DNA of 64,000 bases from Nocardioides aquaticus (GTDB lineage Bacteria > Actinomycetota > Actinomycetes > Propionibacteriales > Nocardioidaceae), in the NCBI RefSeq assembly GCF_018459925.1, contig NZ_CP075371.1:1550001-1614000 (forward strand). Reading direction: 5' to 3'. The position numbers and the translations under genes are program-made. Shown piece after piece: positions 5,016-59,803 of the stretch. Position 1 is the first letter of the stretch, and every line of letters begins with the position of its first letter. The notes beneath the pieces were generated by a model that worked only from the letters and a program-made list of their open reading frames with translations, was not told the origin of the DNA and did not search any database.

Positions 5016-5666
5016 TCATCGGGACGAGGGGTCCACCGACGACAGGAGGCCCGACCGCATCGCGGTGACCAGGGCCTGCGCCCGGTTGGCGGCGCCGAGC
5101 TTCTGGTAGATCCGGGTGATGTCGGACTTGGCCGTGGACTCGGCGAGGAACAGCCGTTCGCCGATCCCGGCCGAGCCGAGCCCCTCCGCGAGGAGCAGCA
5201 GCACCGCGTGCTCGCGCTCGGTGAGCGCCCGCTCGCGTGAGGCCCGTTGGCGGACGACCGCCTGCACCAGTCCGGCGCACACGAACGACCCGGGTGACAC
5301 CGCGGAGCGGCGGGCGGCCGCGACGACCTCGGAGGAGGGGGCGTCCTTGCCGACGAATCCGGAGGCGCCGGCCTGCATGGCCGCCAGGATCTGCTCGTCC
5401 CCGGCGTGCATGGTCACCACGACCAGCCCGACCTCGGGGCGACGGGCGCGCAACCTGCGGACGATGTCGAGGCCGGTGCCGTCGGGCAGCTGGAGGTCGG
5501 TGACGACGACGTCGGGTGAGTGCTGGTCGTGGGCGGCCTGCGCCTCCGTCACCGTGGCCGCGGTGCCGACGACCGACAGGTCGGGCTGCAGGTCCAGCAC
5601 GGTCGACAGGCCTTCGCGGACGAGGGCGTGGTCGTCGACGACGAGCACCGTGGTGGAGGTGCTCAC
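5016..5666 (-). CDS. NarL/LuxR-family two-component response regulator of the Tad locus
   Basis: A 216-aa protein with GTG at 5666 overlapping the kinase stop by 4 bases. The receiver domain (about residues 6-122) has the acidic pair in 'VVDDH', the phospho-acceptor Asp in 'VVVTDLQLPDG', a Thr in 'VVVTMH' and the Lys in 'GFVGKDA'. The C-terminal LuxR-type HTH runs from 'LTEREHAVLLLLAEGL' through the recognition helix 'AESTAKSDITRIYQKL'. It pairs with the kinase at 5663-7240 and is transcribed with the tad genes, so it probably controls pilus expression, plausibly at the flp promoter. The HTH (GSAGIGERLFLAEST) is slightly unlike the usual NKEIA form. Confidence 0.9.
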   Translation of the reverse strand: MSTSTTVLVVDDHALVREGLSTVLDLQPDLSVVGTAATVTEAQAAHDQHSPDVVVTDLQLPDGTGLDIVRRLRARRPEVGLVVVTMHAGDEQILAAMQAGASGFVGKDAPSSEVVAAARRSAVSPGSFVCAGLVQAVVRQRASRERALTEREHAVLLLLAEGLGSAGIGERLFLAESTAKSDITRIYQKLGAANRAQALVTAMRSGLLSSVDPSSR

Positions 5667-11662: not shown

Positions 11663-11667
11663 TCGGC

Positions 11668-12876
11668 TCACCTCCGTCGCCGGAAGCGGCGTTGGCCGGC
11701 GTGCCCGGGATGGTCGGGGCCGGTGCCGCCGGCGGGGCCCGCGGCGGCGTCGGAGGGCCCCGGCACCGGGGTCTCCCCGCCCAGCAGCGTGCGGGCCAGG
11801 TCGCGGACGGCCTGGCTGGTCGGGTGGTCGGGTCTCGCGGTGACGATCGGGGTCCCGGTGTTGGTGCTGGCCGCGACGTCCACCGAGGTCGAGATCCGGG
11901 CCTCGACGGGTATGCCCAGGATGGCCTCGACCTTCTCGACGTCGATGCCGACGGCGTCGTCGGCCCGGTTGAGCAGCAGGTGCCGGTGGCCGGGGGCGAC
12001 GTCGAGCAGGTCCATGGTCTCGAGCGCGACCTTGACGTTCTTCAGCGTCGGCACGTCGAGGGTGGTCACCAGGACGCACTCGTCGGTCTCGTCGAGCGCG
12101 GTCAGGGTCGCGTCGTCGAAGGCCGGGGCGGTGTCGACGACGACGTGGTCGAAGCTCTCGCGCAGGGTGCGCAGGACGCGGGAGACCAGGGCCGGGGTGA
12201 TCCGCTCCTTGACGTCGGGGTGCGCCGGCGCGGCGAGGACCATCAGGGAGTCGGCGTGCCGGGTGAGCAGTCCGTCGAGCTGCACGGCGTCCAGGACGGA
12301 CTCGGCGCCGACGGCCTGCTCGATGGTGTGGGTCGGGAAGAGCTGCATCGTGATCGCGACGTCGCCGAAGCCGAGGTCGAGGTCGACCAGGCAGACGCGG
12401 CGGGCGCCCCGGTCGGCCAGCGCGAGGGCGAGGTTGACCGCCAGCGTGGTCTTGCCGACCCCGCCCTTGGGGGAGAAGACGGTCGTCACCGTGCCGGTAC
12501 GGGTGGCCCCGCCCGGTCCGCGCAGGGCGGTGTGCAGCTGGTGGGCGCGGCGTACGGCCTCGGCCACGGCCTGGTCGTCGTGGGTCTCGACGACGTCGCG
12601 CACCCCGGCCCGCATGGCCTGGCTGAGCAGCGGCGCGTCGATCACCTCCCGCACCAGCACGACGCTGACGGTGGGGCGGTCCACCCGCAGCCGCTCGCAG
12701 AGGTCGGTGACCAGGGCCAGGGGCACGCCCGGGCCGAGGAGCACGACGTACTCGTCGGGGTGGCGCGCCATCCAGGCGTGCATCCGCTCGACGTCCTCGA
12801 CGGCCTGCGTGCCCGCGGGCAGCAGCTTGAGCAGCTCGGCGACGCGGGTCGCGTCGGGTTCGACCAGCACGGGCAT
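11668..12876 (-). CDS. cpaE: TadZ/CpaE-like ParA/MinD-family pilus localisation ATPase
   Basis: A 402-aa protein from ATG 12876. Residues 1-120 form an atypical receiver-like domain ('YVVLLGPGVPLALVTDLCERL'). The ATPase domain has deviant Walker A 'FSPKGGVGKTTLAVNLA' (about residue 135), switch I 'CLVDLDLGFGD' and 'VVVDTAPAFDD'. The C-terminus is a basic/Pro-Gly-rich tail ending in an Arg run. TadZ proteins place the pilus apparatus, usually at a pole. It lies between cpaB and tadA with short spacings, in the usual Tad order. Confidence 0.92.
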   Translation of the reverse strand: MPVLVEPDATRVAELLKLLPAGTQAVEDVERMHAWMARHPDEYVVLLGPGVPLALVTDLCERLRVDRPTVSVVLVREVIDAPLLSQAMRAGVRDVVETHDDQAVAEAVRRAHQLHTALRGPGGATRTGTVTTVFSPKGGVGKTTLAVNLALALADRGARRVCLVDLDLGFGDVAITMQLFPTHTIEQAVGAESVLDAVQLDGLLTRHADSLMVLAAPAHPDVKERITPALVSRVLRTLRESFDHVVVDTAPAFDDATLTALDETDECVLVTTLDVPTLKNVKVALETMDLLDVAPGHRHLLLNRADDAVGIDVEKVEAILGIPVEARISTSVDVAASTNTGTPIVTARPDHPTSQAVRDLARTLLGGETPVPGPSDAAAGPAGGTGPDHPGHAGQRRFRRRR

Positions 12877-45419: not shown

Positions 45420-45493
45420 CGCGGGGTGGAGCAGCTCGGTAGCTCGCTGGGCTCATAACCCAGAGGTCGCAGGTTCAAATCCTGCCCCCGCTA
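45420..45493 (+). tRNA. Initiator tRNA-Met (CAT anticodon)
   Basis: The cloverleaf reads CGCGGGG acceptor, D-arm GAGCAGCTCGGTAGCTC, anticodon stem/loop TGGGCTCATAACCCA and T-arm GCAGGTTCAAATCCTGC, then CCCCGCTA. The three G-C pairs in the anticodon stem (GGG/CCC) and the unpaired first base (C1 opposite T72) mark the initiator tRNA rather than the elongator. CCA is not encoded in full. The island starts directly after the 3' end, so this gene is the likely integration site. Confidence 0.95.
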
Positions 45494-45495
45494 CA
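45470..45495. other. Putative attachment site (attL) at the 3' end of tRNA-iMet
   Basis: The T-arm and 3' acceptor half of the tRNA are a standard target for tyrosine-recombinase elements. The abrupt change of composition and gene content directly after it supports a junction here. No second copy of GGTTCAAATCCTGCCCCCGC was found in the window, so attR and the integrase would lie past base 64,000. The exact core is unknown. Confidence 0.5.
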
Positions 45496-45512
45496 AAGTG
45501 CATAACAGCAGG

Positions 45513-45747: not shown

Positions 45748-46989
45748 TCAGACCAGGCTCTCCACGGCCCTACGCGCGTGGGCCAGATTCTCCCGCGTTG
45801 ACCGGAGAAGGATGTCGAGTTCCGCACCCTGGGCGGCGGACAAAGCTGAGAAGTTGAGGTTCGCCACCGAGATTTGGCACGCGGCTATCGTGAGAAAGCC
45901 TAGGTACTGCTGACGATTTGACTCCGACAACTCCGCCCACCGGAGCGGAGGAACCAGGCTCTGGCCCCAACGGCGCTGTGCGTGCCCTGCGTGAGTACCG
46001 ACGTAGTCGAGCACGTCCGTAGCCACGGCGATCGCTTCTAGGAGGGCTTCGTAGCCACCCTGTGTGGCGAGCAGGGCAGCTTCGGCCTCGCCGAGCTTCG
46101 CCTGGGCTGCCCGCTCCTTCTGCTTGTTGCGTCGCGACATCCACAAGTAGCCGCCCAACCCGAGCGCTGCGGCGGGGACGGCCACGATCCCAGCGAGAAC
46201 GCCGATTCCGCCGGCTATGCCGGCACCCCCGGCGGCGAGGCTCCCCCCACCCAAGTAGGCGAAGGTGGCGCTGGTGGCGGCCGCTCCGCTGAGCCCCGAC
46301 AACGCGGCACCCGTGGACGCCGTCCCGAACATCGCCGCCGCGGTGAACGTTCCGTACGCCGCCGCGCCTCCCAGAGCGCCACCGAACGCCGCACCGCCGG
46401 CGCTGGCGCCGATGTTGTGGGCAACCCGACTAGTGGTCACGCTCAATCGATACTCAGCGACCACCTCCGGATCAGCCAACTCGTCGTCTTCGAGGCTCTC
46501 CGGCTCACTCGGACGCGGGGCGCCGTAGATGCCGCCCGCGACCGTCACGAACGGCAGGAAGAACTCGTCGCGGGCTCGGTCGTGTGCCACGTTGAACCGA
46601 TCGCTGAGCGCTCCGACGGCCTTCATGCGCTGGTCGATCGCGTCCTGAAGCACACCGACCCGCTGCCTGATCGGCAGGCCTGAAGTGGAACCGGCATCCG
46701 AGCTCGCCGCCCCCTGATCCAGCCGGGCGCGTTCCTCCGCTTCCACGTCCGGCGCGAGTCGCTCTGCAGCCTCGGCAAGGACATCCATCGAGACCCCGAG
46801 GGTCCCTGCGATTCGTTGAAGTCGGGCGGCCCCCGGCCTCATCTGCCCCGACTCGACTCGCGAAATCGAAACCCCCGCACCCGGGCCCTTGCTGTAACCC
46901 GCCCTCTCGCCGAGCTGCTGCTGGCTGAGGTCCATGTCTTCGCGGAAGCCTCGGATGGCTCGCCCCAGAGCCTTCGTCGACACACTCAT
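45748..46989 (-). CDS. XRE-family HTH protein with Gly-rich membrane segments
   Basis: A 413-aa protein from ATG 46989. An XRE/Cro-C1 HTH occupies residues about 8-72 ('IRGFREDMDLSQQQLGERAGYSKG', 'ISRVESGQMRPGAARLQRIAGTLGVSMDVL' in pieces). A helical linker follows, then a long Gly/Ala-rich hydrophobic stretch (about 190-285) resembling glycine-zipper membrane helices, and a C-terminal helical domain of about 120 residues. It is divergent from the conflict-system cluster and faces a shared intergenic region with repeated CTTAG elements, so it is a good candidate repressor. The membrane part is odd for a repressor: it could instead sense membrane damage or act as a membrane effector. The domains are seen; the role is inferred. 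Confidence 0.75.
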   Translation of the reverse strand: MSVSTKALGRAIRGFREDMDLSQQQLGERAGYSKGPGAGVSISRVESGQMRPGAARLQRIAGTLGVSMDVLAEAAERLAPDVEAEERARLDQGAASSDAGSTSGLPIRQRVGVLQDAIDQRMKAVGALSDRFNVAHDRARDEFFLPFVTVAGGIYGAPRPSEPESLEDDELADPEVVAEYRLSVTTSRVAHNIGASAGGAAFGGALGGAAAYGTFTAAAMFGTASTGAALSGLSGAAATSATFAYLGGGSLAAGGAGIAGGIGVLAGIVAVPAAALGLGGYLWMSRRNKQKERAAQAKLGEAEAALLATQGGYEALLEAIAVATDVLDYVGTHAGHAQRRWGQSLVPPLRWAELSESNRQQYLGFLTIAACQISVANLNFSALSAAQGAELDILLRSTRENLAHARRAVESLV

Positions 46990-47095: not shown

Positions 47096-47302
47096 GTGGC
47101 TCGTATCAACAAGGCCGCACTCATCGCCGACGTCGCACAGGTCGCGGTCCGTGCACACGTGGTTGCGCAGGACCCGGCTGTGGCCAAGGCCGCGCGCGTC
47201 GCGCTTGACGACGTGATCCGCGCTGGGCAGTCGACCGCCGACCTCGGCCGCGAGGTCGTTGACGCATGGAACCGTGCGGGCCCGGCCGCTCGCCGGATTT
47301 GA
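47096..47302 (+). CDS. Small helical protein at the head of the conflict-system cluster
   Basis: A 68-aa protein from GTG 47096, chosen for the GAAAGGAG RBS; the longer frame from 47045 crosses the promoter. The sequence is all-helical and Ala/Val-rich ('INKAALIADVAQVAVRAHVV', 'VAKAARVALDDVIRAG'), soluble, and without Cys or catalytic motifs. First gene after the operator region. It could be a small regulator or an antitoxin-like partner; nothing in the sequence settles this. Confidence 0.6.
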   Translation: MARINKAALIADVAQVAVRAHVVAQDPAVAKAARVALDDVIRAGQSTADLGREVVDAWNRAGPAARRI

Positions 47303-47314
47303 TCGGCGAGATCC

Positions 47315-47470
47315 GTGTTCGACCTCACCGATCCGCTCGATCCACTCAACCCACTTCACGCGCAATTCTGGGCGGCATGGTCTTGCCCGCAGTGTGCGGA
47401 GGACGGGGACGAGGAACAGCTGGTCGACGGCAGATGCCCGAACTGTGGGTCGCGGGTGGATAAGCAGTGA
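47315..47470 (+). CDS. 51-aa zinc-ribbon miniprotein
   Basis: GTG 47315 to TGA 47470. The translation has an N-terminal repeat ('DLTDPLDPLNPLHAQFW') and two Cys pairs, CPQC (residues 24-27) and CPNC (42-45), spaced like a zinc ribbon. The RBS is weak. Cys pairs also occur in three larger proteins of the cluster, supporting this one as real. Confidence 0.5.
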   Translation: MFDLTDPLDPLNPLHAQFWAAWSCPQCAEDGDEEQLVDGRCPNCGSRVDKQ

Positions 47471-47567
47471 GGAAACGCCCACTACGAGCGACGATGCCAT
47501 CGAAGTCTCGGCGCCGCGGCCAACACCGTGGCTACCCTCGACCTCGGGACCATTCAAGGAGAGCCAC

Positions 47568-48626
47568 ATGAGAACGCCGACCGTGATCGTTGACGTGTCG
47601 ACCGTCGTACGCGACCGGGTGGACCCCGGATGGCACCGGATGGACGCTCTGATCGACCTCTGGCGACGCGAGATGGACGAGAAGGCGATCTTCTACGGAG
47701 TCCTGGACGACGCGTCCTGGTATCACCTCGACGACGCCGGACAGGCCGCCTTCGCGGCCTGGCAGGCTGCGGGGCGAGCAACACGGGTGCGCTGGGCAGA
47801 TCCGCTGGTCTGCGAGAACGCGGAACGATACCCGCACGCGAAGGTCCTCACGAGCGACCTCTACCGCGACCTGCGCCGGGACTTCGTCTGGCTCCAGAAC
47901 AGCGACCGCTTCTACACCTTCAGCTTCACTCCCACGGGCGTCTCCATCGAGCGCGCGGAGATGGGCGCGATCCGGGACGAGGACGTCTCGCAGTACGGCG
48001 AAGCGGCATCGTTGAAGCCCAAGTGCCTCAACACTCCAGAGGGTCGCCAGATGCTCCGGCGGGAGTGGGCCTGCACCAACCCGAGCTGTCCGAGTAGCCA
48101 GGCGAGGGCGATCGCAGACCTCCCCTACAACAGGAACGGGAAGGCGCTCTGCCCCGACTGTCGCAAGGAGTTGGGGGATGCGGGCGACGCCGCGGACACG
48201 CGGGAGCTCAAGGTGCTAATCGGTGGCAATGATGTCGCCCACATTCCGCTCGTGGCTGGGAGCCGCATCGCGATCGGCCGGGGGGGAGGCGAAGACCGTT
48301 TCGACCTCCGGCCACTCGTCGGCGATCAGCAGACGTTAGTCAGCCGCGACCACGTGGCTTTTCGCAACCTGCGTGGTCGGATCTTGGTGTCTGACCTCGG
48401 GTCGAAGAACGGCTCAGCACTCGTCCGTGAGGACGGCCAGAGCGATCCGATCCCGGCAGACGTCGAGCAACGGCTCGAGCTGCATGAGTTCGTGAGCATC
48501 GCCGGCGGTCTCGTGCAGTTCAGGCTGTCGGGCAAGCGCTACGCGCGCGGCGCGTACGTCCCTGATCGAGGTACTGGCGTCATCTCAAGCCCGACCGTAC
48601 TGGCGTCCCCGCAGTCACCTGCCTGA
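47568..48626 (+). CDS. PIN/NYN-like + Cys-cluster + FHA domain protein
   Basis: A 352-aa protein from ATG 47568 with AAGGAGA 6-12 bases upstream; the frame is open earlier but starts inside other genes. Residues 1-120 look like a PIN/NYN (Zc3h12a-like) RNase fold: acidic 'TVIVDVSTVV', 'FYGVLDDASWY', 'KVLTSDLYRDLRRDFVWLQNSDRFYTFSF' in pieces, with Asp residues where such nucleases bind metal. Residues 169-198 are a Cys cluster (CTNPSC...CPDC). Residues about 225-310 are an FHA domain ('AIGRGGGEDRF', 'VSRDHVAFRN', 'DLGSKNGS'), which binds phosphothreonine. The FHA domain next to a kinase gene suggests phosphorylation-dependent recruitment of the nuclease. FHA is certain; the nuclease call is moderate. 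Confidence 0.72.
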   Translation: MRTPTVIVDVSTVVRDRVDPGWHRMDALIDLWRREMDEKAIFYGVLDDASWYHLDDAGQAAFAAWQAAGRATRVRWADPLVCENAERYPHAKVLTSDLYRDLRRDFVWLQNSDRFYTFSFTPTGVSIERAEMGAIRDEDVSQYGEAASLKPKCLNTPEGRQMLRREWACTNPSCPSSQARAIADLPYNRNGKALCPDCRKELGDAGDAADTRELKVLIGGNDVAHIPLVAGSRIAIGRGGGEDRFDLRPLVGDQQTLVSRDHVAFRNLRGRILVSDLGSKNGSALVREDGQSDPIPADVEQRLELHEFVSIAGGLVQFRLSGKRYARGAYVPDRGTGVISSPTVLASPQSPA

Positions 48627-48636
48627 AAGGCCCCTC

Positions 48637-49311
48637 GTGTCCATTCTCGACGTGCCCGCGATTGTCCCTCGGCCGCTCCCCGTCGTGCTCCTCCTCGACA
48701 CCAGCGGAAGCATGCTCAAGGACGACAAGATCGAGGTGCTCAACGACAGCGTCCGCGAAATGATCGCCGCCCTGAAGGACGCCGACGCTCATACCGGCTC
48801 GATTCGGCTCTCAGTGATCGCGTTCGGAGGTCCTACCGCCCAGACCGTGATCGCCCACGCCCCCATCGCCGAGGTGGAGTTCACTACCCTCCAGGCTGGC
48901 GGGCGAACCCCTCTGGGACAGGCGTTCGCCCGCGCGGAAGAGCTCGTCAACGATCTGGAGGCCCTTCCGTCCAATTCGCACCGCCCAACGATCGCGCTGG
49001 TTTCGGACGGCCTCCCGAACCGCGACGACGACTGGCGAGACCAGCTCGAGCGACTGATCGATCACCACCGAGGGGCCAAGGCGACTCGGTTCGCCCTCGG
49101 TGTCGGCGATGATGCCGACCGCGACATGCTCGCGGCGTTCAGTGGCGGCCTCGTGCATCGCGCCGGCGATGCCAGCAAGATCCGCACCTTCCTTCAGTTC
49201 GTCACCATGACCGTCACCGAGGCGACGGTCACAGGAGTGGTAGCCAACGCGTCGTCAGTGTCGGGCGACACCTCGATCGAAGAGTTGGTTTGGCGAGACG
49301 ATGATTTCTGA
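48637..49311 (+). CDS. TerY-like VWA domain protein
   Basis: A 224-aa protein from GTG 48637. It is nearly all VWA domain, with complete MIDAS: Asp21-x-Ser23-x-Ser25 in 'LLLDTSGSM', Thr in 'GGRTPLGQAF' and Asp in 'ALVSDGLPN'. It has no signal peptide, so it is cytoplasmic. It resembles TerY of tellurite-resistance/stress loci, which are reported to form triads with a kinase and a PP2C phosphatase. Here the kinase follows with an 11-base overlap, but no phosphatase is present. It is likely a metal-dependent scaffold for the kinase or its substrates. Confidence 0.85.
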   Translation: MSILDVPAIVPRPLPVVLLLDTSGSMLKDDKIEVLNDSVREMIAALKDADAHTGSIRLSVIAFGGPTAQTVIAHAPIAEVEFTTLQAGGRTPLGQAFARAEELVNDLEALPSNSHRPTIALVSDGLPNRDDDWRDQLERLIDHHRGAKATRFALGVGDDADRDMLAAFSGGLVHRAGDASKIRTFLQFVTMTVTEATVTGVVANASSVSGDTSIEELVWRDDDF

Positions 49312-50629
49312 GGTCCGCCACGTCGTGGATGAGGCCGATGTCGCGTACCAACTGGGCGAGCCCATCGCGAAGGGCGGCCAAGGCATCGTCTACCGCGTCG
49401 TCGCGCAGCCCGACCTCGCCATCAAGTTGTTGTTCCAGCCCGAGTCCTTGGCCCACATCGCCCGTGTGCGCAGGCTTTCGCTTGACGGCCTCCACATCGC
49501 GGGGCCGACAACGCTACTGCGGGGCGAAACGCCGGGATACGTTATGCGGTTGGCGCGCGACATGACGACCCTGACCGCCGCCTATCTCCCAGGACAGTTC
49601 GGCAACGGTCACGACGCCTCGTGGTATCGGGAGACCGGCGGTCTGCGGCGCCGGCTCGACGTCGCTTCGCGAGTCGCTGCCCTAATCGTTGCGCTGCACG
49701 ACCGAGCGCTCGCGTACGTCGACCTCAACCCGTACAACGTTCTGATCTCCGACAACGTCGAGCTGGCGGAGACCTGGCTGATCGACACCGACAACCTGAC
49801 ATCGGCGTACAGCGCGACGAGCCAGGTCATGGGCATGCCGGGGTACCTGGCGCCCGAGCGCTCCAGGCCCCATTCGATCGCCCCTCCCAGCACGCTGGCC
49901 GACGCCTACAGCCTGGCTGTAATGGTGTTCAAGATGCTGTTCCTCAGCCACCCGCTCGCGGGTACCGCAAGCGCAGACCTCGGGGCGGAGGAAGCGCGCG
50001 ACCGGGCCGACGCCGGGGAGTTCGACTACATCGGTCCCTCCGCGGGGAGCTCCAATAGCCCTGCGGCTCCGATGACCTCGGCGCTGCTGCCTCTCGGCAT
50101 GACGACCCGCCTTGCCGTAACCGCGCGTCGCACGTTCGGCCCCGGCAAGCTAGACCCGCAACTCCGTCCCGGAGCGGCGGCGTGGCGCGACGACCTGTTC
50201 AGTGCACTGGACAACGTCGTGAGCTGCCCGGGTAGTTGCGGATGGACGATGTACCGCAACTCGGCGACCTGCCCGGCGTGCTCAACTCCAGTCGGCAGAA
50301 CCTTGGTGGCATCGGTGCACCTCGACGACGGCGGAGTTCCCAGCCCCGACTCCCAGATTCACGTGCTTGTGGTGAGCCCGCGGCACCCGACCGAGATCAA
50401 CCCACGGCACCTGTGGGGCGCCTCGGAAGAGACCGACCCGATCCTCACCATCACCGCGCATGGCGACACTTTCGTAGTCAGGGCAGAGGGCGACGCCGTC
50501 GTCAGCGACCCGCAGGGGAGGCCGGCTCGATCCGTAGCTCGACCGGCGGGTCGAGCCACGCACTTCCGCGTGAGTGTCCAGGGCCGACCGCCACGTTTGC
50601 TCGCCCTGCGATGGGCCGGTCCCCGATGA
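49301..50629 (+). CDS. Divergent Ser/Thr protein kinase with C-terminal Cys cluster
   Basis: A 442-aa protein from ATG 49301, overlapping the VWA gene by 11 bases and the helicase by 4. Kinase features: Gly loop 'GGQGIVYRV' (25-33), Lys42 in 'LAIKLL', catalytic loop 'YVDLNPYNVLI' with Asp141 and Asn146 (Tyr139 in place of the usual His), 'LIDTDN' with Asp162 in place of DFG, and 'PGYLAPER'. Residues about 310-330 carry CPGSC...CPAC, a zinc-ribbon-like element, followed by a beta-rich C-terminal region. TerY-associated kinases are also known with zinc ribbons. Metal and ATP residues are kept, so catalysis is plausible. Confidence 0.82.
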   Translation: MISEVRHVVDEADVAYQLGEPIAKGGQGIVYRVVAQPDLAIKLLFQPESLAHIARVRRLSLDGLHIAGPTTLLRGETPGYVMRLARDMTTLTAAYLPGQFGNGHDASWYRETGGLRRRLDVASRVAALIVALHDRALAYVDLNPYNVLISDNVELAETWLIDTDNLTSAYSATSQVMGMPGYLAPERSRPHSIAPPSTLADAYSLAVMVFKMLFLSHPLAGTASADLGAEEARDRADAGEFDYIGPSAGSSNSPAAPMTSALLPLGMTTRLAVTARRTFGPGKLDPQLRPGAAAWRDDLFSALDNVVSCPGSCGWTMYRNSATCPACSTPVGRTLVASVHLDDGGVPSPDSQIHVLVVSPRHPTEINPRHLWGASEETDPILTITAHGDTFVVRAEGDAVVSDPQGRPARSVARPAGRATHFRVSVQGRPPRLLALRWAGPR

Positions 50630-53600
50630 AGCTCGAGTTGGCCGGTGGGGGACAGGCACGGCTACTGGCCCTTCCGCGAATCAGCCAGGCCCCCGTTCAA
50701 GACGGGCAGCCCGTTCGCATCACCCTTACCGGTGGAGGCATCGCCCTCCACGACGGAACACGCACGTCCCTGTGCGGAGAGCCGGACGAGCCCGACGCCA
50801 GTTGGCTCAAGCAGGTCGCGGAGTCCCGCGCCTACCTCGCAGACGTCATCACAGTCGACCAAGGAGTCCGGCTCCGCGTCATCCCCTTCGACCAGGTAGA
50901 CCAGTGGGCTCGCCAGCATGCCATCGGCGTCGACGAGCACGCACTCGATCGGATCGCCCAAGCGGTACCGCACCTGCAGTCTCGGCGTCCGGAGGAGATA
51001 CGGGCCTGGCTCACCGACCAAGTCAGGCTCGAAGCGCCCGACCCTGCTGTCCTGGTGCACGTCGGCGGGTCCCGTCGTGTCAACGTCGAAGCTTTCCGGC
51101 TCGTCGGGGAGTCCCGCTACGTCGACGTGAGCCTTGTCGGGGAGCGCCTCCTCGTGGACACGGTGTCTCCACGCCGTCGCCGCGACTCTGAAACCCTTTG
51201 CCTGGTGCACGGGTCGGTTCGCTTCGAGGACGCGACCCGTCTGGCATCCATCAGCCCCGCGGACCTTGCGGAATGGCACCGGCTCACTGAAGCAGACAAC
51301 TCTTACCTCCAGGTGTGGAACCGCTACAACCAGTTCGAGCGAGAAGCCCGAGAGCGAACCGCGCGCCTGGCAGGCAGCGCGGCCTACGACAGTCGCCGCC
51401 GCCTGCTGGACGGGAGCTGGGAGTTCGACCTCGTCCTCAGCGTCGGGGCCAGTCGCCTCATCGAGGCGCTCCGACTCGGCGAGGTCACCCTTGAAGCCGG
51501 CGCCACCGTTGCCTACGACCAGTCCGCAACCGTCTCTGGCGCCGGTCGGCGAACGCTGGCTGGCACTGCGCGTCTGACGGAAACCGGCACCGTGGTCCTT
51601 CGCCCCGAGGTGGACGACTCGGGGGTCGACCTTCCGCGCCACGGCTACCTCTCGGGCTCGTTCACAGCAGACCGAATCCGCCTGAAGCGCCGAGAAGAGG
51701 CGCAGGCAAGGGCCGTCACCGCGAAGTCGTTCCCGGTACTCCAGCTCTCCCGTGTCTTGGCGGGCCAAGCGCCGGCGGCGGCCGGGCGTGTGGACCGGCA
51801 CCCCGCCATGTCCAAGCGGGCTGCCGAAGCGCTCGGGGCACCCCCGACGCGGGCCCAAGTCGACGCCATCACCATCGCCCTCAATACCCCCGACATCGCT
51901 CTCATTCAGGGACCGCCAGGGACAGGGAAGACCCGGGTGATCGCTGCCGTCAACGCTCGGCTGACGCAGATCAACGCGGACCACCCCGCCGAGATTCGCC
52001 GCACCTTGCTGAGCAGCTACCAGCACGACGCAGTGGACAACCTCGCCTTCGGAGCTGACGACGGTCGCCTGCCCGCGATGAAGGTGGCGGCCCGGAGTGG
52101 GCAGAGCGGGAACTCCCAGGTGGCCCAGTGGGCACGGGCCACCGTTGCGCGGATCGACAAGCACCATGCTGGGCGCGAAGAGAGCCGAGTGGTACGCGAC
52201 TGGATTGAGCTGCGCGACCGGACGACGGCGTACCGACTCATGCCCGCAGACGTCGCCAGCACGGTCGAGGTACTGAGCTGGCTCGCTGCTCGCTCGTCCC
52301 TCATCGGCAGCGAGACGGCCCTCGACGCGGAGGACCTGATCACCAAGTTGAACCATCAGGTCGGCTTGCGGCATTCTCGCGAGCGGTTCGTTGAGATACT
52401 GCGTCGCGTCCGCTCGCTGCGCGTTTCTCCGGAGTCGTTCGCCGACGACGGCGCTGACAATGCCACGCTGGCGCTCGAAGACGAAGGTCTCCGAGCCGCG
52501 CTCTCCGAGGATCAGGCGCGGCTCATGACCGAGCTCAGCAACGCCGTCGACCCTGCACCCCACCTGCTTGAGGCAACCGCCCGACTTCAAGCCGACGTTC
52601 TGGACCGGCTCCTGACCTCGCGTGCCCGCTCTGCCGTAACGGCGCAAATGCCCGAGGTCAACGCTCTCCTGCAGCGGTCCCTCACGACGGCTCAAGAGCG
52701 TGTGCAGCAGTTGACGTCCGTTGCGGACAGGATCGTGGAGGACTTCAGGCGTGCGCTCCTGGAGCAGCCCGAGACGGTCGCAAGCGCGGTCAGCACGCAC
52801 TCGCGCGCACTCGCAGCGACATGCCAGCAGGCAGTGGCCGGAGTGATGAAGGAGATACAGGCCAGCCTCGAGTTCGACACGGTGATCGTCGACGAGGCGG
52901 CTCGCGCCAACCCCCTCGACCTCCTCATCCCGCTCACCCTCGCGCGCCGCCGCATCATTCTTGTCGGCGACCACCGCCAGCTCCCGCAGATGCTCGACGA
53001 AGACGTCGTCGACACTCTCGAGAACTCGGATCCCGAAGCCGAAGTGAAGCGCGTGCTCGAAAAGTCGATGTTCGAGCAGCTCTTCCAGCAGTTGCGGGCA
53101 CTGGAGCGAGCCGATGGGATCAGCCGGGTCGTCACCTTGGACCAGCAGTTCCGCACTCACCCTGTCCTCGGCGAGTTCGTCAGTACCCACTTCTACGAGC
53201 CCTACGGCGAGGCCTTCACAAATGGCCGTCCGGACCCGACCGAGTTCGAACACGGTTTGGACGCATACGAGGGCCGACCGGCGGCCTGGATCGACGTGCC
53301 CGCAACACTGGGGCCTGAGACAGGGCGGAGCAAGACCCGAAGGATCGAGGCGGAAGTCATTGTCCGCGAGCTCGTGGCCGCCCTGGACGCAGGCAGGGAT
53401 CTCAACTTCGGGGTTATCGCGTTCTATTCCGGCCAAGTCCGCGCGATCTGGGAGGAACTCGAAAGGATCGGCTACGCGGTCCGCGACGGGGACGTGTTCT
53501 CCCTGGCGCCCTCGGTGAGGCTCCTGTGGTCGGAGGACGGCCTTGAACGCGTCCGCGTCGGAACGGTCGACGCCTTCCAAGGGCGTGAGTTCGATGTCGT

Positions 53601-53832
53601 GTACCTATCCGCGACGCGCTCCCAACGACTGGCCCCGCGGAACAAGCCGCGATTCGGTTTTCTGGCGTTGCCGAATCGCCTGTGTGTCGCCATGAGCCGA
53701 CAGCGGCGACTACTGGTGGTAGTCGGTGACGCGGCGATGTTCACACACGACCACGCGAACGAGAAGGTGCCGGCGTTGGCGGCGTTCCACCAGTTGACCG
53801 GGGGTGCCCATGGCTGCCGTCGACCAGCGTGA
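50626..53832 (+). CDS. SF1 helicase (Upf1/Dna2-like, AAA_11/AAA_12)
   Basis: A 1068-aa protein from ATG 50626 (ATGA overlap with the kinase). Residues 1-400 are a beta-rich N-terminal region not seen in housekeeping helicases. SF1 motifs: I 'GPPGTGKT' (429-436), II 'VDEAARANPLD' (Asp756-Glu757), III 'GDHRQLPQM', IV 'LDQQFRTHP', V 'VDAFQGREFDVVYLS', VI 'VAMSRQRRLLVVVGD' (from about 1021). A large helical insertion (about 500-740) separates I and II, and helicase domain 2 is complete. Upf1/Dna2-like enzymes move 5'-3' on RNA or DNA. No nuclease domain is fused. It is the likely motor component of the cluster. It overlaps the next gene by 23 bases. Confidence 0.9.
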   Translation: MKLELAGGGQARLLALPRISQAPVQDGQPVRITLTGGGIALHDGTRTSLCGEPDEPDASWLKQVAESRAYLADVITVDQGVRLRVIPFDQVDQWARQHAIGVDEHALDRIAQAVPHLQSRRPEEIRAWLTDQVRLEAPDPAVLVHVGGSRRVNVEAFRLVGESRYVDVSLVGERLLVDTVSPRRRRDSETLCLVHGSVRFEDATRLASISPADLAEWHRLTEADNSYLQVWNRYNQFEREARERTARLAGSAAYDSRRRLLDGSWEFDLVLSVGASRLIEALRLGEVTLEAGATVAYDQSATVSGAGRRTLAGTARLTETGTVVLRPEVDDSGVDLPRHGYLSGSFTADRIRLKRREEAQARAVTAKSFPVLQLSRVLAGQAPAAAGRVDRHPAMSKRAAEALGAPPTRAQVDAITIALNTPDIALIQGPPGTGKTRVIAAVNARLTQINADHPAEIRRTLLSSYQHDAVDNLAFGADDGRLPAMKVAARSGQSGNSQVAQWARATVARIDKHHAGREESRVVRDWIELRDRTTAYRLMPADVASTVEVLSWLAARSSLIGSETALDAEDLITKLNHQVGLRHSRERFVEILRRVRSLRVSPESFADDGADNATLALEDEGLRAALSEDQARLMTELSNAVDPAPHLLEATARLQADVLDRLLTSRARSAVTAQMPEVNALLQRSLTTAQERVQQLTSVADRIVEDFRRALLEQPETVASAVSTHSRALAATCQQAVAGVMKEIQASLEFDTVIVDEAARANPLDLLIPLTLARRRIILVGDHRQLPQMLDEDVVDTLENSDPEAEVKRVLEKSMFEQLFQQLRALERADGISRVVTLDQQFRTHPVLGEFVSTHFYEPYGEAFTNGRPDPTEFEHGLDAYEGRPAAWIDVPATLGPETGRSKTRRIEAEVIVRELVAALDAGRDLNFGVIAFYSGQVRAIWEELERIGYAVRDGDVFSLAPSVRLLWSEDGLERVRVGTVDAFQGREFDVVYLSATRSQRLAPRNKPRFGFLALPNRLCVAMSRQRRLLVVVGDAAMFTHDHANEKVPALAAFHQLTGGAHGCRRPA

Positions 53833-55051
53833 CCTCCCCGTGCACCTGGCAGAGGAGCTGGACGAGCGCACGGATTTCGTCGTGCTCGCGCCCGCGCAGA
53901 GGTGGCGGACCCTGATCGACGGCGTCTCGCACGTTCAGGGAGACGTGCTGCTCACCACGGTCGCCCGGTTCGTGGCGGCCGGCGCGGCGCCGCTCCAGAT
54001 CAGTGAGGCGCTGCAGTTGCCCGACGACCTGATCACGCACCTGGTTTCCCGGGTTCGTCTGGAGCGCATCAAGGTTACTGAGGACGGGCGGGCGCTCGTC
54101 AGCGAGTCGGCCATCTTGGGCTGGATGTACCGGGACCTGATCACCGACGATCTCAACCCCACCATCGGCCCCGAACGTCCAGCCGTCGACGTCCGTTGGC
54201 AACACGACCGAGCCACCTTCACCACGGGAACGACTGGCAAGCCTCGTCGAATCCATGCGGCGGCGCTCTTCACACCCAAGACAGATCCAGCACGCCCGAC
54301 CGCTCACGAGCTTGTGCGACTCGCGGCCGAACGCCCCGGCGGCGAGTGCCGGCTCACCTTGGTCGGAGCCGACGAGCTGTGCTTGCTGGTGCATCCCATC
54401 CAAGTGGTCGACCACGAAGCGGTTGTCGTCGATGCAGCCGGTCGCCCGCAACTCCAAATGACCCGCTCGTTGCACGAGACCGCGCGGTCGAAGCCGACGC
54501 TGCGCGCATGGCTCGATCGTGCCGTCGATGCCGAGCCAGTCACAGTCGTCTCGTCCACGACCGATTCGCCACTGGGGCGGTCGGTCCTCGGCTTGTTCAA
54601 AGCCCGCCAGGACTTCGAGGCTCACCGTTCAGCGCGAGCTGCGCGACAGCTGCTGGAGGCCGTCGAACTCGTCTTGAGGAGGTACTGCGCCCACACGTGG
54701 TTCCGCAGTCAGATTGATCCCTCTGAGTTCCCGCCCGTCATGGTCGACGCGGGCTCGTTGGCCGCCGCGTTCGGGATTACCGAGTCAGAGGCAGCGGCCC
54801 TGCTTGGCGACCACGACGCTGAGGCTCGTCGCACCTCCCAAGAACTTGTCCGCCTTGCCCTCGAGAGTCGGCATCGCTCGGAGCTCCAGGCCGTGAACGT
54901 CCTGGCTCTCGTCCAACTGGGCGCAGAGTTCGTCGTCCTTCGCGGCACTCAAGGACAGTTCGAGCGCCTGAGCAGATGCGCTCTCCAGGTCGAAGACCTC
55001 GGACGGCAAGCACTCAACGATCAGAAGGATCACCATGAGCGGTCGCAGTAA
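53810..55051 (+). CDS. Unknown conflict-cluster protein, possible winged helix
   Basis: A 413-aa protein from ATG 53810 (GTG 53804 is also possible), overlapping the helicase and the McrB-like gene. Residues about 40-85 ('LLTTVARFVAAGAAPLQISEALQLPDDLITHL' in pieces) have the look of a winged-helix or HTH. The middle is beta-rich ('LTLVGADELCLLVHPIQVVDHEAVVVDA'). The C-terminal part is helical ('SARAARQLLEAVELVLRRYC', 'AAAFGITESEAAALLGDHDAEARR'). No known catalytic motif is visible. Tight coupling on both sides says it belongs to the system, perhaps as a DNA-recognition or adaptor subunit. Confidence 0.72.
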   Translation: MAAVDQRDLPVHLAEELDERTDFVVLAPAQRWRTLIDGVSHVQGDVLLTTVARFVAAGAAPLQISEALQLPDDLITHLVSRVRLERIKVTEDGRALVSESAILGWMYRDLITDDLNPTIGPERPAVDVRWQHDRATFTTGTTGKPRRIHAAALFTPKTDPARPTAHELVRLAAERPGGECRLTLVGADELCLLVHPIQVVDHEAVVVDAAGRPQLQMTRSLHETARSKPTLRAWLDRAVDAEPVTVVSSTTDSPLGRSVLGLFKARQDFEAHRSARAARQLLEAVELVLRRYCAHTWFRSQIDPSEFPPVMVDAGSLAAAFGITESEAAALLGDHDAEARRTSQELVRLALESRHRSELQAVNVLALVQLGAEFVVLRGTQGQFERLSRCALQVEDLGRQALNDQKDHHERSQ

Positions 55052-57314
55052 CAAGGGTCGGTCCGCCAAGCCGGGCTACAAGGCAGCACAGCCCGTCGAG
55101 GACGTCCTGGCGGAGATAGAGAACGAAGAAGGTCCGCCTGACCCGGACGGCGGCGGCCCAGGAGGGGGTCCTTCGCAGACGCTGGCGGACGCCCCCGAGG
55201 ATCTACGGGTCGTGGAACGAGAGCTGCGCGCCGCGTGGGCGGACGCGCTGCGGTTCAAGGAGCTGTGGCAGCGCGCCAAGCAGCGGGCCGACAAACGCGA
55301 GGGGGATCTCGCACCGAGAGAAGCGAAGGTCCGCGACGACGAGCTCGACATTGCAAAGCACAAGAAGGATCTGGCAGTCCGCGAACGAGCTGTCGCGGAG
55401 GAAGAGCGTTCGTTGGAAGACAAGCGCGCCGACGCTGCGTCCGGGTTCGCCAGCGAGCAGCTCAAGGCGACCGAGCAGCTCCGTGGGAAGCGAGACGCTC
55501 TCCAGATCGAAATCAACACCCTGGAGGAAGAGCTTGCCACCCGCCGGACTGTCGGTGTCTCCGAGGAACGCGCCGCACTAGCGAAGGAGCGCCTCCAACT
55601 GGACAACGACCGGCAGGCCCTCGAACAGGACCGTGCACGGCACGCGCGCGATGCTCAAGCACTTGCGGCCGAGCGCGCACTGTTCGACGACCAGAAGCGC
55701 CACCTGGAACGCAAGCACGAGCAGGACCTCGAGCTCGCCGAGCGCGACGTCGCTTTGAAGCTCGCGCGACCGGAGCGACTGCGCGAGAAGGAGGAGGAGG
55801 CACGCAAGGCCGCCGAAGAGGAGGGTGCCGCGCTGCGGGCCCTGCTCGACCGTCTGGGCGAGCGGCCTGAGAGGTTGGTGGAAGAGAATGCGCGCCTCAG
55901 CGTTCAAATCGGCGAGCTAGAGGACCGCTTGACCAACGTTCCCGACGCGGCCCAGCTGGAGAATCTGAAAGCACTGGCTGCCAGGACGCGCCAAGCTGAA
56001 GCCGACGCTGTCGAATGGCGGCGTCAGCGAGACGAGGTCGGCCAGCGGCTCGACCGCCAACTCGTCGCTGTCGGAGACCTGGAAACCGCTCGCGAGGTCG
56101 CCCGTGGCCTAGAACGCCAGAACGCCGGCCTGCGGGCAGCCCTTGACGAAATGGGCGCACGTTGGGGTGAGCTCCAAGCCCAGGAAGCCGACAGAAAGCC
56201 GTTTGTCACCCTCAGCGGCTACGACGCAGACCCGGCCATGCTGCGCCTCCCACCAACCAGGTCGGGGGAGCTGACCCTCCGCGCCCTGGCGGACGAAGTA
56301 CGTCAACGGATGGCGGGTGAGCGGCAGTTCTACTACTCCGAGACCGACGTCCGTCTCTTCCTCGCCGGCCTTGCGTCAAGCCGACTCCACCTGCTCCAGG
56401 GCATCTCAGGGACTGGCAAGACCAGCCTGCCCATCGAGTTCTTCCGCGCGCTCGGCGGAAACAGCAGCGTGATCGAGGTTCAGGCCGGATGGCGAGACAA
56501 GGACGACCTCTTCGGCTTCTACAACGCATTTGAGAAACGGTTCAACGAGACCGAGTTCACCAAGGCTCTCTATCGCGCACTTCTCCCCGCGAACGCAGAC
56601 CTTCCCACCGTCATCGTCCTGGACGAGATGAACCTGGCTCACCCCGAGCAGTACTTCGGCACCATGCTCTCGAAGCTGGAGAACCTCGAGCGCGGGGCCG
56701 TCCTCGACATCCTGAACAGTCCCGTCCCGAACGTTCCCGACCTCTTCGTCGACGGATCCAAGTTGCCCTTCGCAGAGAATGTGTGGTTCGTGGGCACCGC
56801 CAACCACGACGAGACCACCGTCTCCTTCGCGGACAAGACCTACGACCGATCCCACGTCCAGGAACTGCCACACACGTACACGTCTTTCCCCGCGAGCGAC
56901 CAGCATCCCCAAGACCCGATTTCCTTCATCGCACTCAAGGACGCGTTCGACCTTGCGGAGAGGCAGCACCGCACCGCGGCCACAGGTGCGCGGCGCTTCA
57001 TTGCCGATGAGGTCCGGCCCCTGTTCACACCCTTGAGGATTGGGTGGGCGAATCGCCTGCCCCTTCAGCTCGATCGTTTCGTGCCGGTCTTCCTTGCCGC
57101 GGGCGGCACCGTCACCGAAGCCGTCGATCACGTGATCGAGGCCAAGATCATCCGCAAGGTCCGCGACCAGTTTGAAATCACCCCCGACCAGCTCACCGAG
57201 CTCAAGGACAAGCTCCAGGCGGCTTGGCCCAAGCTCGAGAGCGGCGGATCGCCGACCCGCTCCCTCGCCAAACTGGACGACGAGATCCACAGACTCAGCG
57301 GCGGCATCGGCTAG
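55035..57314 (+). CDS. Coiled-coil McrB-like AAA+ NTPase
   Basis: A 759-aa protein from ATG 55035, overlapping the previous gene by 17 bases. Residues about 50-390 are a long charged coiled coil rich in Glu, Arg, Ala and Leu. The AAA+ domain begins near 395: Walker A 'GISGTGKT' (456-463), Walker B 'VIVLDEMNLAHPEQYF' (Asp530-Glu531), sensor Asn in 'WFVGTANHDETT'. The 'DEMNLA' form and the spacing match the McrB/MoxR group, which in McrBC translocates along DNA and activates the McrC nuclease. McrB proteins usually carry a DNA-binding domain N-terminally; here it is replaced by coiled coil. The partner gene follows two bases after the stop. Confidence 0.85.
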   Translation: MSGRSNKGRSAKPGYKAAQPVEDVLAEIENEEGPPDPDGGGPGGGPSQTLADAPEDLRVVERELRAAWADALRFKELWQRAKQRADKREGDLAPREAKVRDDELDIAKHKKDLAVRERAVAEEERSLEDKRADAASGFASEQLKATEQLRGKRDALQIEINTLEEELATRRTVGVSEERAALAKERLQLDNDRQALEQDRARHARDAQALAAERALFDDQKRHLERKHEQDLELAERDVALKLARPERLREKEEEARKAAEEEGAALRALLDRLGERPERLVEENARLSVQIGELEDRLTNVPDAAQLENLKALAARTRQAEADAVEWRRQRDEVGQRLDRQLVAVGDLETAREVARGLERQNAGLRAALDEMGARWGELQAQEADRKPFVTLSGYDADPAMLRLPPTRSGELTLRALADEVRQRMAGERQFYYSETDVRLFLAGLASSRLHLLQGISGTGKTSLPIEFFRALGGNSSVIEVQAGWRDKDDLFGFYNAFEKRFNETEFTKALYRALLPANADLPTVIVLDEMNLAHPEQYFGTMLSKLENLERGAVLDILNSPVPNVPDLFVDGSKLPFAENVWFVGTANHDETTVSFADKTYDRSHVQELPHTYTSFPASDQHPQDPISFIALKDAFDLAERQHRTAATGARRFIADEVRPLFTPLRIGWANRLPLQLDRFVPVFLAAGGTVTEAVDHVIEAKIIRKVRDQFEITPDQLTELKDKLQAAWPKLESGGSPTRSLAKLDDEIHRLSGGIG

Positions 57315-57316
57315 CC

Positions 57317-59380
57317 GTGAACGAAACCCGAGACCGAGTGACAGGTCGTTCTACGGCGCCGGAGAGCGGATGGACCGGTCGCTGGCTGGATGACCTCGGC
57401 TACGTCCTCGACCCCCAAGCCGATCGCGATCGAGCGGCGTCCGACGACCTGGATGCCCTCGCCGACCACATTCCGGACCTGCGCGACCTCAGGAGCATTG
57501 AGTCCTGGGACCTTTTCGCGATCGCGGCGGACCCGAAGGCGCGCAACACCGACGACCTCCTCCTGGAGGAACGAGAGGAGAAGCTCGCCGAGCACCTACC
57601 GTCGATCGCGCGGATCTGCCAGAAGCCCCTCACTCGACTGACTGACGAGGTAGACCTACTGCCGGTGCCGAGGGTTCGTCGGCCGGCGAAGCGAGCCATC
57701 GAGCGATTCACCGCCCGCACGGAGGACTGGGCCGGCCGCACACTCCTCGGCCCTGTTCCCCGGCGTGCGCTGGCCCTGCTCCGCGTGGAGGACGCCAACC
57801 TCTACGAGAATCGCATGGTCAACGAACTCGTCCACCCAATCCTCAGCACGAGCTTGGCCCGGCGGATCCGCCAACTGAAGCGAGCCAGGTATGGGCTGGC
57901 CGAGCTCGACGACGCAACCACTCAGGGGACTCACCTCCGCCAAAGGCGGCTCTACGAGTTCTGGGGCGGAACGGGCGACGACCCAGGCACTCTCGCGCGC
58001 GGGGCCGCCGAAACTCTCGCCGAACTCGAGCGCCTCGCCGCGGCGGTCAAGGCTCTCCGCAGCACACGGCTGGTGCGCCTGCTCGGCAACCGCCGCACAG
58101 GCCGGCGTCAACTCCGTCAGACCAACGTGATCGCAGACAACGACAAGTACCATGCTGCCGGGATTGTCTGGCGGGCCTTCGAACGGGATACGCCGACTCC
58201 CGAAACTCCCGACGAGCGCCGCCACCGCTTGCTGGAGCGCCATGAGTGCTTCGCCCTCTACGCCCTCGTGCTGATCGTACGAGCCCTGAATGATCTCGGC
58301 TACCGACCCGACGCGGACCAAGCACCAACCCCCGGAACCTGGACACGCCTGAGCGGAGCCGCGACTTGGGCGGACGCCGAGCTGTACAGGGGCGGGGACG
58401 GCACCGTGACCCTACGCTGCGAGGGGCAAGAGACGCGGTTCGTCCCCCTCCTCGACCTTATTGGGCCCGGCGATCGACCCGAGCAAGTGCTGGTGCGTTG
58501 GGCCAGCATCGAGGCGGCAGTTAGGACGCCGACGGTTATCGTCAACCTGGCACCATTCCGGCTGGCGGCCGGGCTTCCTGGTGCGGCAGCCATGTCGCTG
58601 ACCTCGGCCGGCGCCGACGGTCAAACCGGCCGCTACCTCGCGACCGCGGTGCCGGTAACCCCTCTTGAAAGCACAAGCCTCGAACGGGTGGCCCGCGCTG
58701 TGGCCGACGCAGTCCGGACACCCGCGCTTGACGCCTACCCTCCTCGCGTTGTGGATGGCGACAGCGGGCTGCCCCGGAAGATCATCTCTTCCCTCGTCGA
58801 GTCCCAGATCGCCTCTGCTCCGCTCGCCGATCTCTTCTTCCGTGCCGACCAGGACACGCTCTGCGTCCGGCGGCGCATGGTCCCCGCTGAAGCGGAGCGA
58901 CTGCGCACCTGGGTAGGTAGCCGCTTGAGGAGCGGCCGGGGGACCGGTTGGGAGCGCGATTTCACAGATCTGCTGGAAAGAACACCAGACTTGATCGCGG
59001 CCGCCGGCGAGGTCGCCGACCGGCTCATGGTGTGTCCTGCGTGCGGGCAACGAGCCGACATTGTCGCGATGGGCCGCGGACGAGTAGGGAATCTGCTCTT
59101 CGTCACCTGTGACTCATGTGGTGCTCGATGGGGGCATCACCGATGCGGCGCCTGCCAGGGCCGAATCCCCTTCATGGCGCCAACGCGCCACGCGCCACGC
59201 CGAGCGCCTGAGGGGCCCGGGTGGGTAGAGCGCACGTACGGACAGGACGCATTGGCATCCCCATGCTGGCGAGATGGAGAGGTGGAGTCGGACTACGTCT
59301 GCCCGCACTGCGGTAGCTGCGGGGGATCCATCAAGAGTCCAAGTCGAGAATGCTCCCGATGCGCGCCTGGGCATCACTAG
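57317..59380 (+). CDS. DUF2357/McrC-like protein with C-terminal Cys clusters
   Basis: A 687-aa protein from GTG 57317. Residues about 60-260 resemble the DUF2357 region that accompanies McrB-like NTPases, with 'VEDANLYENRMVNELVHPIL' in pieces (Glu164-Asn165-Arg166). The middle is of mixed fold. I find no clear PD-(D/E)XK nuclease motif, such as the D...DxK seen in McrC relatives. The last 120 residues hold several Cys pairs: CPAC (573-576), CDSC, CGAC and CPHCGSC, likely one or two zinc ribbons or treble clefs. As the probable partner of the coiled-coil McrB it may recognise nucleic acid or protein. The nuclease could be cryptic, or supplied by the PIN/NYN-like protein. Confidence 0.7.
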   Translation: MNETRDRVTGRSTAPESGWTGRWLDDLGYVLDPQADRDRAASDDLDALADHIPDLRDLRSIESWDLFAIAADPKARNTDDLLLEEREEKLAEHLPSIARICQKPLTRLTDEVDLLPVPRVRRPAKRAIERFTARTEDWAGRTLLGPVPRRALALLRVEDANLYENRMVNELVHPILSTSLARRIRQLKRARYGLAELDDATTQGTHLRQRRLYEFWGGTGDDPGTLARGAAETLAELERLAAAVKALRSTRLVRLLGNRRTGRRQLRQTNVIADNDKYHAAGIVWRAFERDTPTPETPDERRHRLLERHECFALYALVLIVRALNDLGYRPDADQAPTPGTWTRLSGAATWADAELYRGGDGTVTLRCEGQETRFVPLLDLIGPGDRPEQVLVRWASIEAAVRTPTVIVNLAPFRLAAGLPGAAAMSLTSAGADGQTGRYLATAVPVTPLESTSLERVARAVADAVRTPALDAYPPRVVDGDSGLPRKIISSLVESQIASAPLADLFFRADQDTLCVRRRMVPAEAERLRTWVGSRLRSGRGTGWERDFTDLLERTPDLIAAAGEVADRLMVCPACGQRADIVAMGRGRVGNLLFVTCDSCGARWGHHRCGACQGRIPFMAPTRHAPRRAPEGPGWVERTYGQDALASPCWRDGEVESDYVCPHCGSCGGSIKSPSRECSRCAPGHH

Positions 59381-59578: not shown

Positions 59579-59803
59579 ATGGAGACCCTTCTGCTGAAGA
59601 TCCCCGAGGTCATGGCGCGCCTGGCGGTCGGCCAGACGAAGGTCTACGAGTTGATGTCCAGCGGCGAGCTCCGGTCGGTGAAGGTCGGCCGGTCGCGCCG
59701 GGTCCCCAACGACGACCTCGAGCGCTTCATGGCTGAGCTCGATGACAGCCGACCAAATCTGCGCCTGCCCGCGCCGAGGGGGTCCACGGCCCGCGCTTCA
59801 TAG
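59579..59803 (+). CDS. Excisionase-family HTH DNA-binding protein
   Basis: A 74-aa protein from ATG 59579 (GTG 59573 is also possible) with GAGGAG upstream. The MerR-like winged helix of the Xis/HTH_17 family is clear: 'LLLKIPEVMARLAVGQTKVYELMSSGELRSVKVGRSRRVPNDDLERFM' in pieces. In integrative elements these proteins direct excision or regulate transfer genes. It stands between the conflict cluster and the Tad-like cluster, and supports this region being a mobile element. The cognate integrase is not in the window. Confidence 0.85.
   Translation: METLLLKIPEVMARLAVGQTKVYELMSSGELRSVKVGRSRRVPNDDLERFMAELDDSRPNLRLPAPRGSTARAS

Follow-up and report, generated by a model that had tools for sequence, protein, structure and literature searches.

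A predicted Type II-like CoCoNuT operon of Nocardioides aquaticus headed by a NYN/PIN-zinc ribbon-FHA gene and with a CnuE lacking the HEPN RxxxxH motif

Results

A stretch of 64,000 nucleotides of the Nocardioides aquaticus genome (assembly GCF_018459925.1, contig NZ_CP075371.1, positions 1,550,001 to 1,614,000 of the forward strand; hereafter the window) carries seven large + strand genes, g1 to g7, at window positions 47568..59380. This operon is almost certainly a CoCoNuT of the Type II-like branch, in which an additional first gene (g1) encodes a predicted NYN/PIN-zinc ribbon-FHA protein and the CnuE protein (g5) has no HEPN RxxxxH motif. From g1 to g7 the successive junctions are a gap of 10 bases, overlaps of 11, 4, 29 and 17 bases, and a gap of 2 bases. 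The single-strand seven-gene operon proposed in the preliminary description was confirmed, and all seven genes are kept in Nocardioides sp. zg-1308. Pfam families were assigned to g2 (VWA), g3 (Pkinase), g4 (AAA_11/AAA_12) and g6 (AAA_5); no Pfam family was found for g5, and g7 gave only sub-threshold zinc-ribbon matches, with DUF2357 not reached.

In the portion of Bell et al. (2024, eLife 13:RP94800, PMC11090510) compared here, Type II CoCoNuTs comprise an NxD-type CnuB, a CnuC with DUF2357 and CPxC zinc ribbons, a UPF1-like CnuH, a CnuE with winged helix-turn-helix (wHTH) and HEPN domains, and TerY-P, and Types II and III-A join TerY-P with the CnuH helicase, CnuE, a coiled-coil McrB and a DUF2357 McrC. 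The same text describes a large helical insertion after Walker A of CnuH, SmpB-like and RelE-like domains at the N-terminus of Type II CnuH (the RelE-like domain also in Type III-A), a CoCoNuT GTPase fused to a long coiled-coil, an inactivated PD-(D/E)xK domain in Type II CnuC, an Hsp70-like unit on CnuC and two HEPN domains in CnuE of Type III-A, and a CnuE HEPN RxxxxH motif conserved "in most cases". The preliminary description knew of no named system combining these components; the published Types II and III-A do combine them, and the idea of a categorically new system was abandoned after that paper was found.

With respect to the individual proteins, g4 (50626..53832, +) is a UPF1-like SF1 helicase by Pfam (PADLOC MkoA match, E 9.7e-86), in which about 320 residues separate Walker A (429) from the DEAA motif (756), a spacing which indicates the large insertion of CnuH; identity to the helicase of locus L155 was 36% over 1078 columns. 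The GTPase encoded by g6 (55035..57314, +) is a CnuB of the NxD-type McrB kind, with the motif NHDE at 590-593; a pattern search recognized NxD in all but one of 52 related loci (51). Its long charged N-terminal region (approximately residues 81-360) is poor in Pro and Gly and 70-90% E/K/R/Q/A/L/D, a composition compatible with a coiled-coil, with a heptad periodicity in nine sequence windows that is not clearly above that of shuffled sequences. The g7 product (57317..59380, +) is DUF2357/McrC-like, with five C-terminal CxxC pairs of which two are CPxC, and 30% identity to a DUF2357-annotated protein; on these features it is a CnuC-type protein with CPxC zinc ribbons, and no Hsp70 family was among its Pfam matches up to E 1. 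A TerY-like VWA protein with the metal ion-dependent adhesion site (MIDAS) residues DxSxS, T and D is encoded by g2 (48637..49311, +), and a Ser/Thr kinase with a C-terminal zinc ribbon (CPGSC...CPAC) by g3 (49301..50629, +), both as judged by Pfam and alignment. The kinase has the predicted catalytic residues K42, D141 (in YVDLNPYN) and D162 (in IDTDN) and is 33% identical to the kinase of locus L156 over 336 columns.

The plain layout, consisting of VWA, PP2C, kinase or hypothetical protein, AAA-domain helicase, hypothetical protein, AAA ATPase or hypothetical protein, and DUF2357 protein, was found in annotated plasmid records of Deinococcus sp. AJ005 and Pseudanabaena sp. ABRG5-3, and it matches the arrangement given for Type II CoCoNuTs by Bell et al. 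Proteins g4, g7 and g3 of the window were 36%, 30% and 33% identical to proteins of these records over most of their length, and g6 aligned with 43.5% identity over its residues 278-759.

The CnuE protein encoded by g5 (53804..55051, +) has a conserved N-terminal part, with 222 homologous columns (hhalign 99%), followed by a C-terminal bundle (residues 253-412). The structural model shows one bundle, which is predicted to be HEPN-like from a second look with VIA that ranked HEPN entries high; a Foldseek search with the model gave no match at E <= 0.001. The RxxxxH motif was present in none of seven CnuE proteins of the clade carrying g1 and in 38 of 42 outside it, and in all seven clade proteins the R and H columns were occupied by other residues. 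An arginine, R293 of g5, is retained in 9 of 9 clade rows, and no histidine within residues 253-412 is kept in at least 8 of 9. The clade proteins are also shorter (405-421 aa versus 479-574 aa outside), the 442 aa of L049 and some of the outside values being inflated by overlong starts. The sequence RRYCAH in g5 was considered as an RxxxxH motif and rejected: at the position of its His, a relative of 98% identity has R, and the other clade rows have E, Q or D. The g5 protein has kept the N-terminal part and a predicted HEPN-like scaffold with the motif lost, and is probably a structural or binding part. As a separate observation, the CnuE proteins of L056, L057, L062 and L064, loci which have no NYN-FHA gene, keep the HEPN His and have lost the Arg, and may form another branch of inactivated HEPN proteins.

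The g1 protein (47568..48626, +) was delimited by AlphaFold2, VIA-align, PDB profile and conservation analysis as a NYN/PIN domain (residues 1-131), a four-cysteine ribbon (C169, C174, C195, C198) and an FHA domain (approximately 202-325). The NYN/PIN assignment rests on the predicted fold together with the predicted acidic metal-binding residues D9, D78, D97 and D101, and the acidic residues of the Regnase-like site are retained in nearly all g1 homologues. In the FHA domain, R238, S259, H262 and N281 lie in the pattern GR, SxxH, NG, which we take to be the phosphothreonine-binding residues. The terms FHA and NYN had no match in the main text of PMC11090510 or in the passages of preprint PMC10542128 that were compared, which does not establish absence from print, and against that text the NYN-FHA protein is the sole component of the operon with no published counterpart.

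To place the operon among its relatives, one genome per species from 84,980 species was scanned with a CnuB alignment. Of the 123 relatives detected, the 80 best loci were taken further. A g7 relative comes after CnuB in 52 of these (L049-L100), and wherever the contig is long enough relatives of g4, g3 and g2 come before it; L101-L128 have in common only the GTPase domain, with at most a weak helicase match. The NYN-FHA profile matched in 5 of the 80 loci, neither of the annotated plasmid loci among them: Nocardioides zg-1308, Agromyces humi, Lentzea albidocapillata, Nocardia rhamnosiphila and Micromonospora chokoriensis. These represent five actinobacterial families and a single clade, and in all five g1 lies directly 5' of the VWA gene. 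In a quick CnuB tree, with Shimodaira-Hasegawa-like approximate likelihood ratio test (SH-aLRT) values as its only support, the window and the five loci fall within a set of eight rows (SH-aLRT 100), the other two being metagenome-assembled genomes (MAGs) of Mycobacterium and Armatimonadota whose contigs stop before the place of g1. Every clade member with a contig reaching that place carries g1; because the two contig-end MAGs were scored g1-negative, the label count on this tree is three changes and not one. In a CnuH tree of the same kind, built after removal of five loci that were near-duplicates or overlapped, the six g1-positive rows form one clade (SH-aLRT 100) with one change. The distribution of g1 and of the HEPN motif in these trees therefore places g1 gain and motif loss on one branch, which is consistent with replacement but constitutes a single event. 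The operon clade is distinct and mainly actinobacterial. Among its relatives, the Nocardia locus has a McrBC-component gene (PF10117) upstream of it at L054 423-1919, and the Agromyces locus adjoins a gene for a TrwC relaxase at L051 1-2134 (-).

Searches with g1 itself confirmed its patchy occurrence. Order-wide, 29 of 293 genomes gave a match, full length only in the window's own genome and zg-1308, the remaining matches being partial and mostly to the FHA end. A search of genome contigs with g1 alone gave no match, and no relative was found when viral contigs were scanned with the g1 alignment. Against 394 sampled genomes of the class, 6 of which have CnuB matches, the g1-protein alignment matched 14 at E <= 1e-10, and in ten genomes besides that of the window the match spans at least 267 of 348 profile positions.

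In the 13.6-20 kb around each of these ten homologues, tblastn searches that used the window's g2-g7 and their relatives as queries detected no CnuB, CnuC or CnuH and gave kinase matches only. A Ser/Thr kinase is next to the g1 homologue in six of the ten (L147, L149, L150, L151, L152 and L153), that of L147 being the PF00069 match G346:C45:21704, and the adjoining kinases often carry WD40 repeats. Two others, L145 and L146, each contain a second NYN-FHA relative with a weaker match, and lined up with it are genes for a VWA protein, a phosphatase of the SpoIIE/PP2C-like kind and a kinase-like protein which falls under the Pfam cut-offs; the paired NYN-FHA-like genes are at 5266-6297 and 10460-11578 of L145 and at 10533-11702 and 16070-17113 of L146, and these cassettes may be a stand-alone phospho-switched RNase set. 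No kinase was found among the part of the neighbor genes tested in L148 and L154. Altogether, a kinase or a VWA/phosphatase/kinase-like set is beside 8 of the 10 homologues, which represent seven genera and cannot be counted as independent. These genomes measure between 5.2 and 10.7 Mb and have between 36 and 91 kinase matches; by a rough estimate, a few genes in every hundred would have a kinase neighbor by chance. No published name for the stand-alone NYN-zinc ribbon-FHA/kinase pairs was found in an incomplete literature search, which does not establish absence from print.

A PP2C gene was sought with a profile of ten PP2C proteins (E 0.01), and none was found in any window open reading frame (ORF) of at least 80 residues. 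Of the 41 loci whose VWA gene is complete, 28 have no PP2C, and these 28 are all from Actinomycetota, with or without g1. The possibility that g1 stands in for the phosphatase was rejected, as 23 of these 28 loci have no g1. In L060-L099, from Actinomycetota, VWA and kinase genes adjoin and the TerY-P triad is cut to a pair, L071 excepted.

Genomic setting

The preliminary description had placed the operon on an island beside a tRNA gene, and this was borne out by tRNA-Met attachment (att) repeats and integrase genes. The source genome is a single contig of 4.58 Mb. The island's left attachment repeat, located by repeat search at 45452-45496, covers the 3' part of the tRNA-Met(CAT) gene (45420..45494, +; ARAGORN, Rfam); these 45 bases, from the anticodon region to the 3' end, have a second copy at contig positions 1,711,749-1,711,793, and 35 of them are present again at 1,804,666-1,804,700, all copies being direct repeats. 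One integrase gene (1,710,449-1,711,570, -) lies directly inside the first distant repeat and a second (1,712,409-1,713,584, -) directly past it, and a TrwC relaxase domain is at contig position 1,644,915. In 2-kb bins the G+C content is 0.70-0.78 up to 44 kb of the window and 0.65-0.69 from 46 kb onward, the drop starting in the gene preceding tRNA-Met. Two integrated elements appear to lie in tandem here, the first of about 116 kb and the second of about 93 kb, with the operon as first cargo at one end of the 116-kb element. The stretches fetched from zg-1308 gave no att repeat.

Upstream of g1 is a divergent gene for a 413-aa XRE-type helix-turn-helix (HTH) regulator (45748..46989, -; Pfam HTH_3/HTH_31; 68% identity in L036). 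Its Gly/Ala-rich middle was noted, and its match to the PADLOC candidate PDC-M09A (E 1.5e-15) may reflect composition. Between it and g1 are two small + strand ORFs, g0a (47096..47302, 68 aa), for which zg-1308 alone of the loci examined has a counterpart, and g0b (47315..47470, 51 aa), which has two CxxC pairs and no match in those loci and may be a non-gene ORF. Strain zg-1308 keeps g0a at 58% identity, and it keeps the regulator together with all of g1-g7 at 63-79%. A further small ORF (59579-59803, 74 aa), 200 bases 3' of g7, resembles an excisionase-type HTH protein by eye.

Discussion

The gene set and order, the predicted folds, the residue conservation, the joint occurrence of HEPN loss and g1 in one clade, and the linkage of g1 homologues to kinases elsewhere are direct observations, and on balance they incline us to a Type II-like CoCoNuT with an exchanged RNase effector. 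By analogy with what has been proposed for other CoCoNuTs, the CnuB/CnuC and CnuH/CnuE units would assemble on invading or aberrant RNA. The engaged complex may then cause the TerY-type VWA protein and the kinase to phosphorylate a threonine, either in the kinase or in a subunit of the complex; the FHA domain of g1 would bind the phosphothreonine, and the recruited Regnase-like NYN/PIN domain would cleave RNA in place of HEPN, with protection against phage as the presumed outcome. We infer the defence role, phosphorylation, recruitment and RNA cleavage alike. Control of an RNA-cutting FHA protein by the kinase and VWA protein had already been suggested, and the suggestion fits the kept acidic residues, the kinase neighbors elsewhere and the absence of a HEPN motif from CnuE of this clade. 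PRORP PIN domains tie by fold with the NYN/PIN domain of g1, and because this weakens the label Regnase-like, our confidence in the full mechanism was lowered very slightly.

The foremost alternative, which we regard as unlikely, is that the operon is a CoCoNuT in which g1 is an accessory regulator or RNA-processing enzyme, for example tuning operon mRNA, with killing brought about elsewhere, for example by a RelE-like domain such as that reported for CnuH of Types II and III-A. The occurrence of g1 homologues apart from CoCoNuTs in ten of 394 class genomes speaks for it, as do the 75 of 80 CnuB loci with no g1 match, some of them on short contigs; set against these are the retention of the acidic residues in nearly all homologues, the presence of g1 in every clade member whose contig reaches its place, and a Pfam-level scan in which, CnuH and CnuC folds aside, no other nuclease family was found in the operon. 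It is improbable that the operon is not anti-phage and is instead a TerY-type stress cluster using CoCoNuT parts for RNA quality control, since its position at the end of an integrase-bearing island and its patchy spread (full-length g1 in 2 of 293 order genomes, CnuB matches in 6 of the 394 from the class) are more in keeping with mobile defence cargo. Least probable is an ordinary Type II CoCoNuT whose diverged CnuE is still an RNase through other residues, with g1 a redundant second nuclease: the HEPN-like bundle persists in the g5 model and R293 is invariant in the clade, but no histidine is comparably kept, both motif columns are changed in all seven proteins, and the proteins are shorter.

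More tentatively, and as a possibility that falls just short of the probable, we propose that the exchanged effector defines a CoCoNuT subtype gated by phosphorylation, in which the CnuE HEPN has been retired and a Regnase-like NYN/PIN-FHA RNase is recruited by the TerY-linked kinase, and that the same protein with lone kinases forms a wider family of bacterial kinase-switched RNases parallel to the antiviral Regnase/KHNYN enzymes of animals. The compared text of PMC11090510 gives no role for the VWA/kinase module in CoCoNuTs, and g1, at once a predicted phosphothreonine reader and a predicted RNase, is a concrete candidate for the protein under kinase control. The findings suggest that the CoCoNuT nuclease is an exchangeable part, and they point to NYN-FHA proteins linked to kinases as a broader actinobacterial group.

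Comparison with known systems

The window shares with Type II CoCoNuT, in order, a TerY-like VWA gene, kinase-zinc ribbon, CnuH, CnuE, NxD CnuB and DUF2357-type CnuC. It differs in the extra first gene for a NYN/PIN-zinc ribbon-FHA protein, in a CnuE lacking the HEPN RNase motif and so departing from the wHTH plus HEPN/RxxxxH form, and in having no PP2C, as in all but one of the other actinobacterial loci examined. A CoCoNuT headed by an FHA-NYN gene with a motif-less CnuE is a variant of a described system, and its absence from print is not established. Type III-A has two HEPN domains in CnuE; the g5 model shows a single bundle. With the TerY-P triad (VWA, PP2C, Ser/Thr kinase-zinc ribbon) the operon has in common the adjacent VWA gene with MIDAS residues and the kinase-zinc ribbon gene, but the triad has a PP2C and the operon does not.

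The Mokosh protein MkoA is a kinase-helicase fusion. Although g4 matches MkoA strongly (E 9.7e-86), assignment to Mokosh was rejected, as the helicase is the only part matching: McrB/McrC-like genes are present, the kinase is separate (g3), and g4 has no Pfam kinase match.

Residues 1-131 of g1 have the same predicted fold as ZC3H12 (Regnase/MCPIP) and KHNYN, with matching D and D..YRD stretches, but only 10-13% identity, and where the animal proteins have their own partner domains g1 has a four-cysteine ribbon and FHA. The stand-alone actinobacterial NYN-zinc ribbon-FHA proteins have the same three domains as g1 and an adjacent kinase and, unlike the window operon, no CnuB, CnuC or CnuH nearby.
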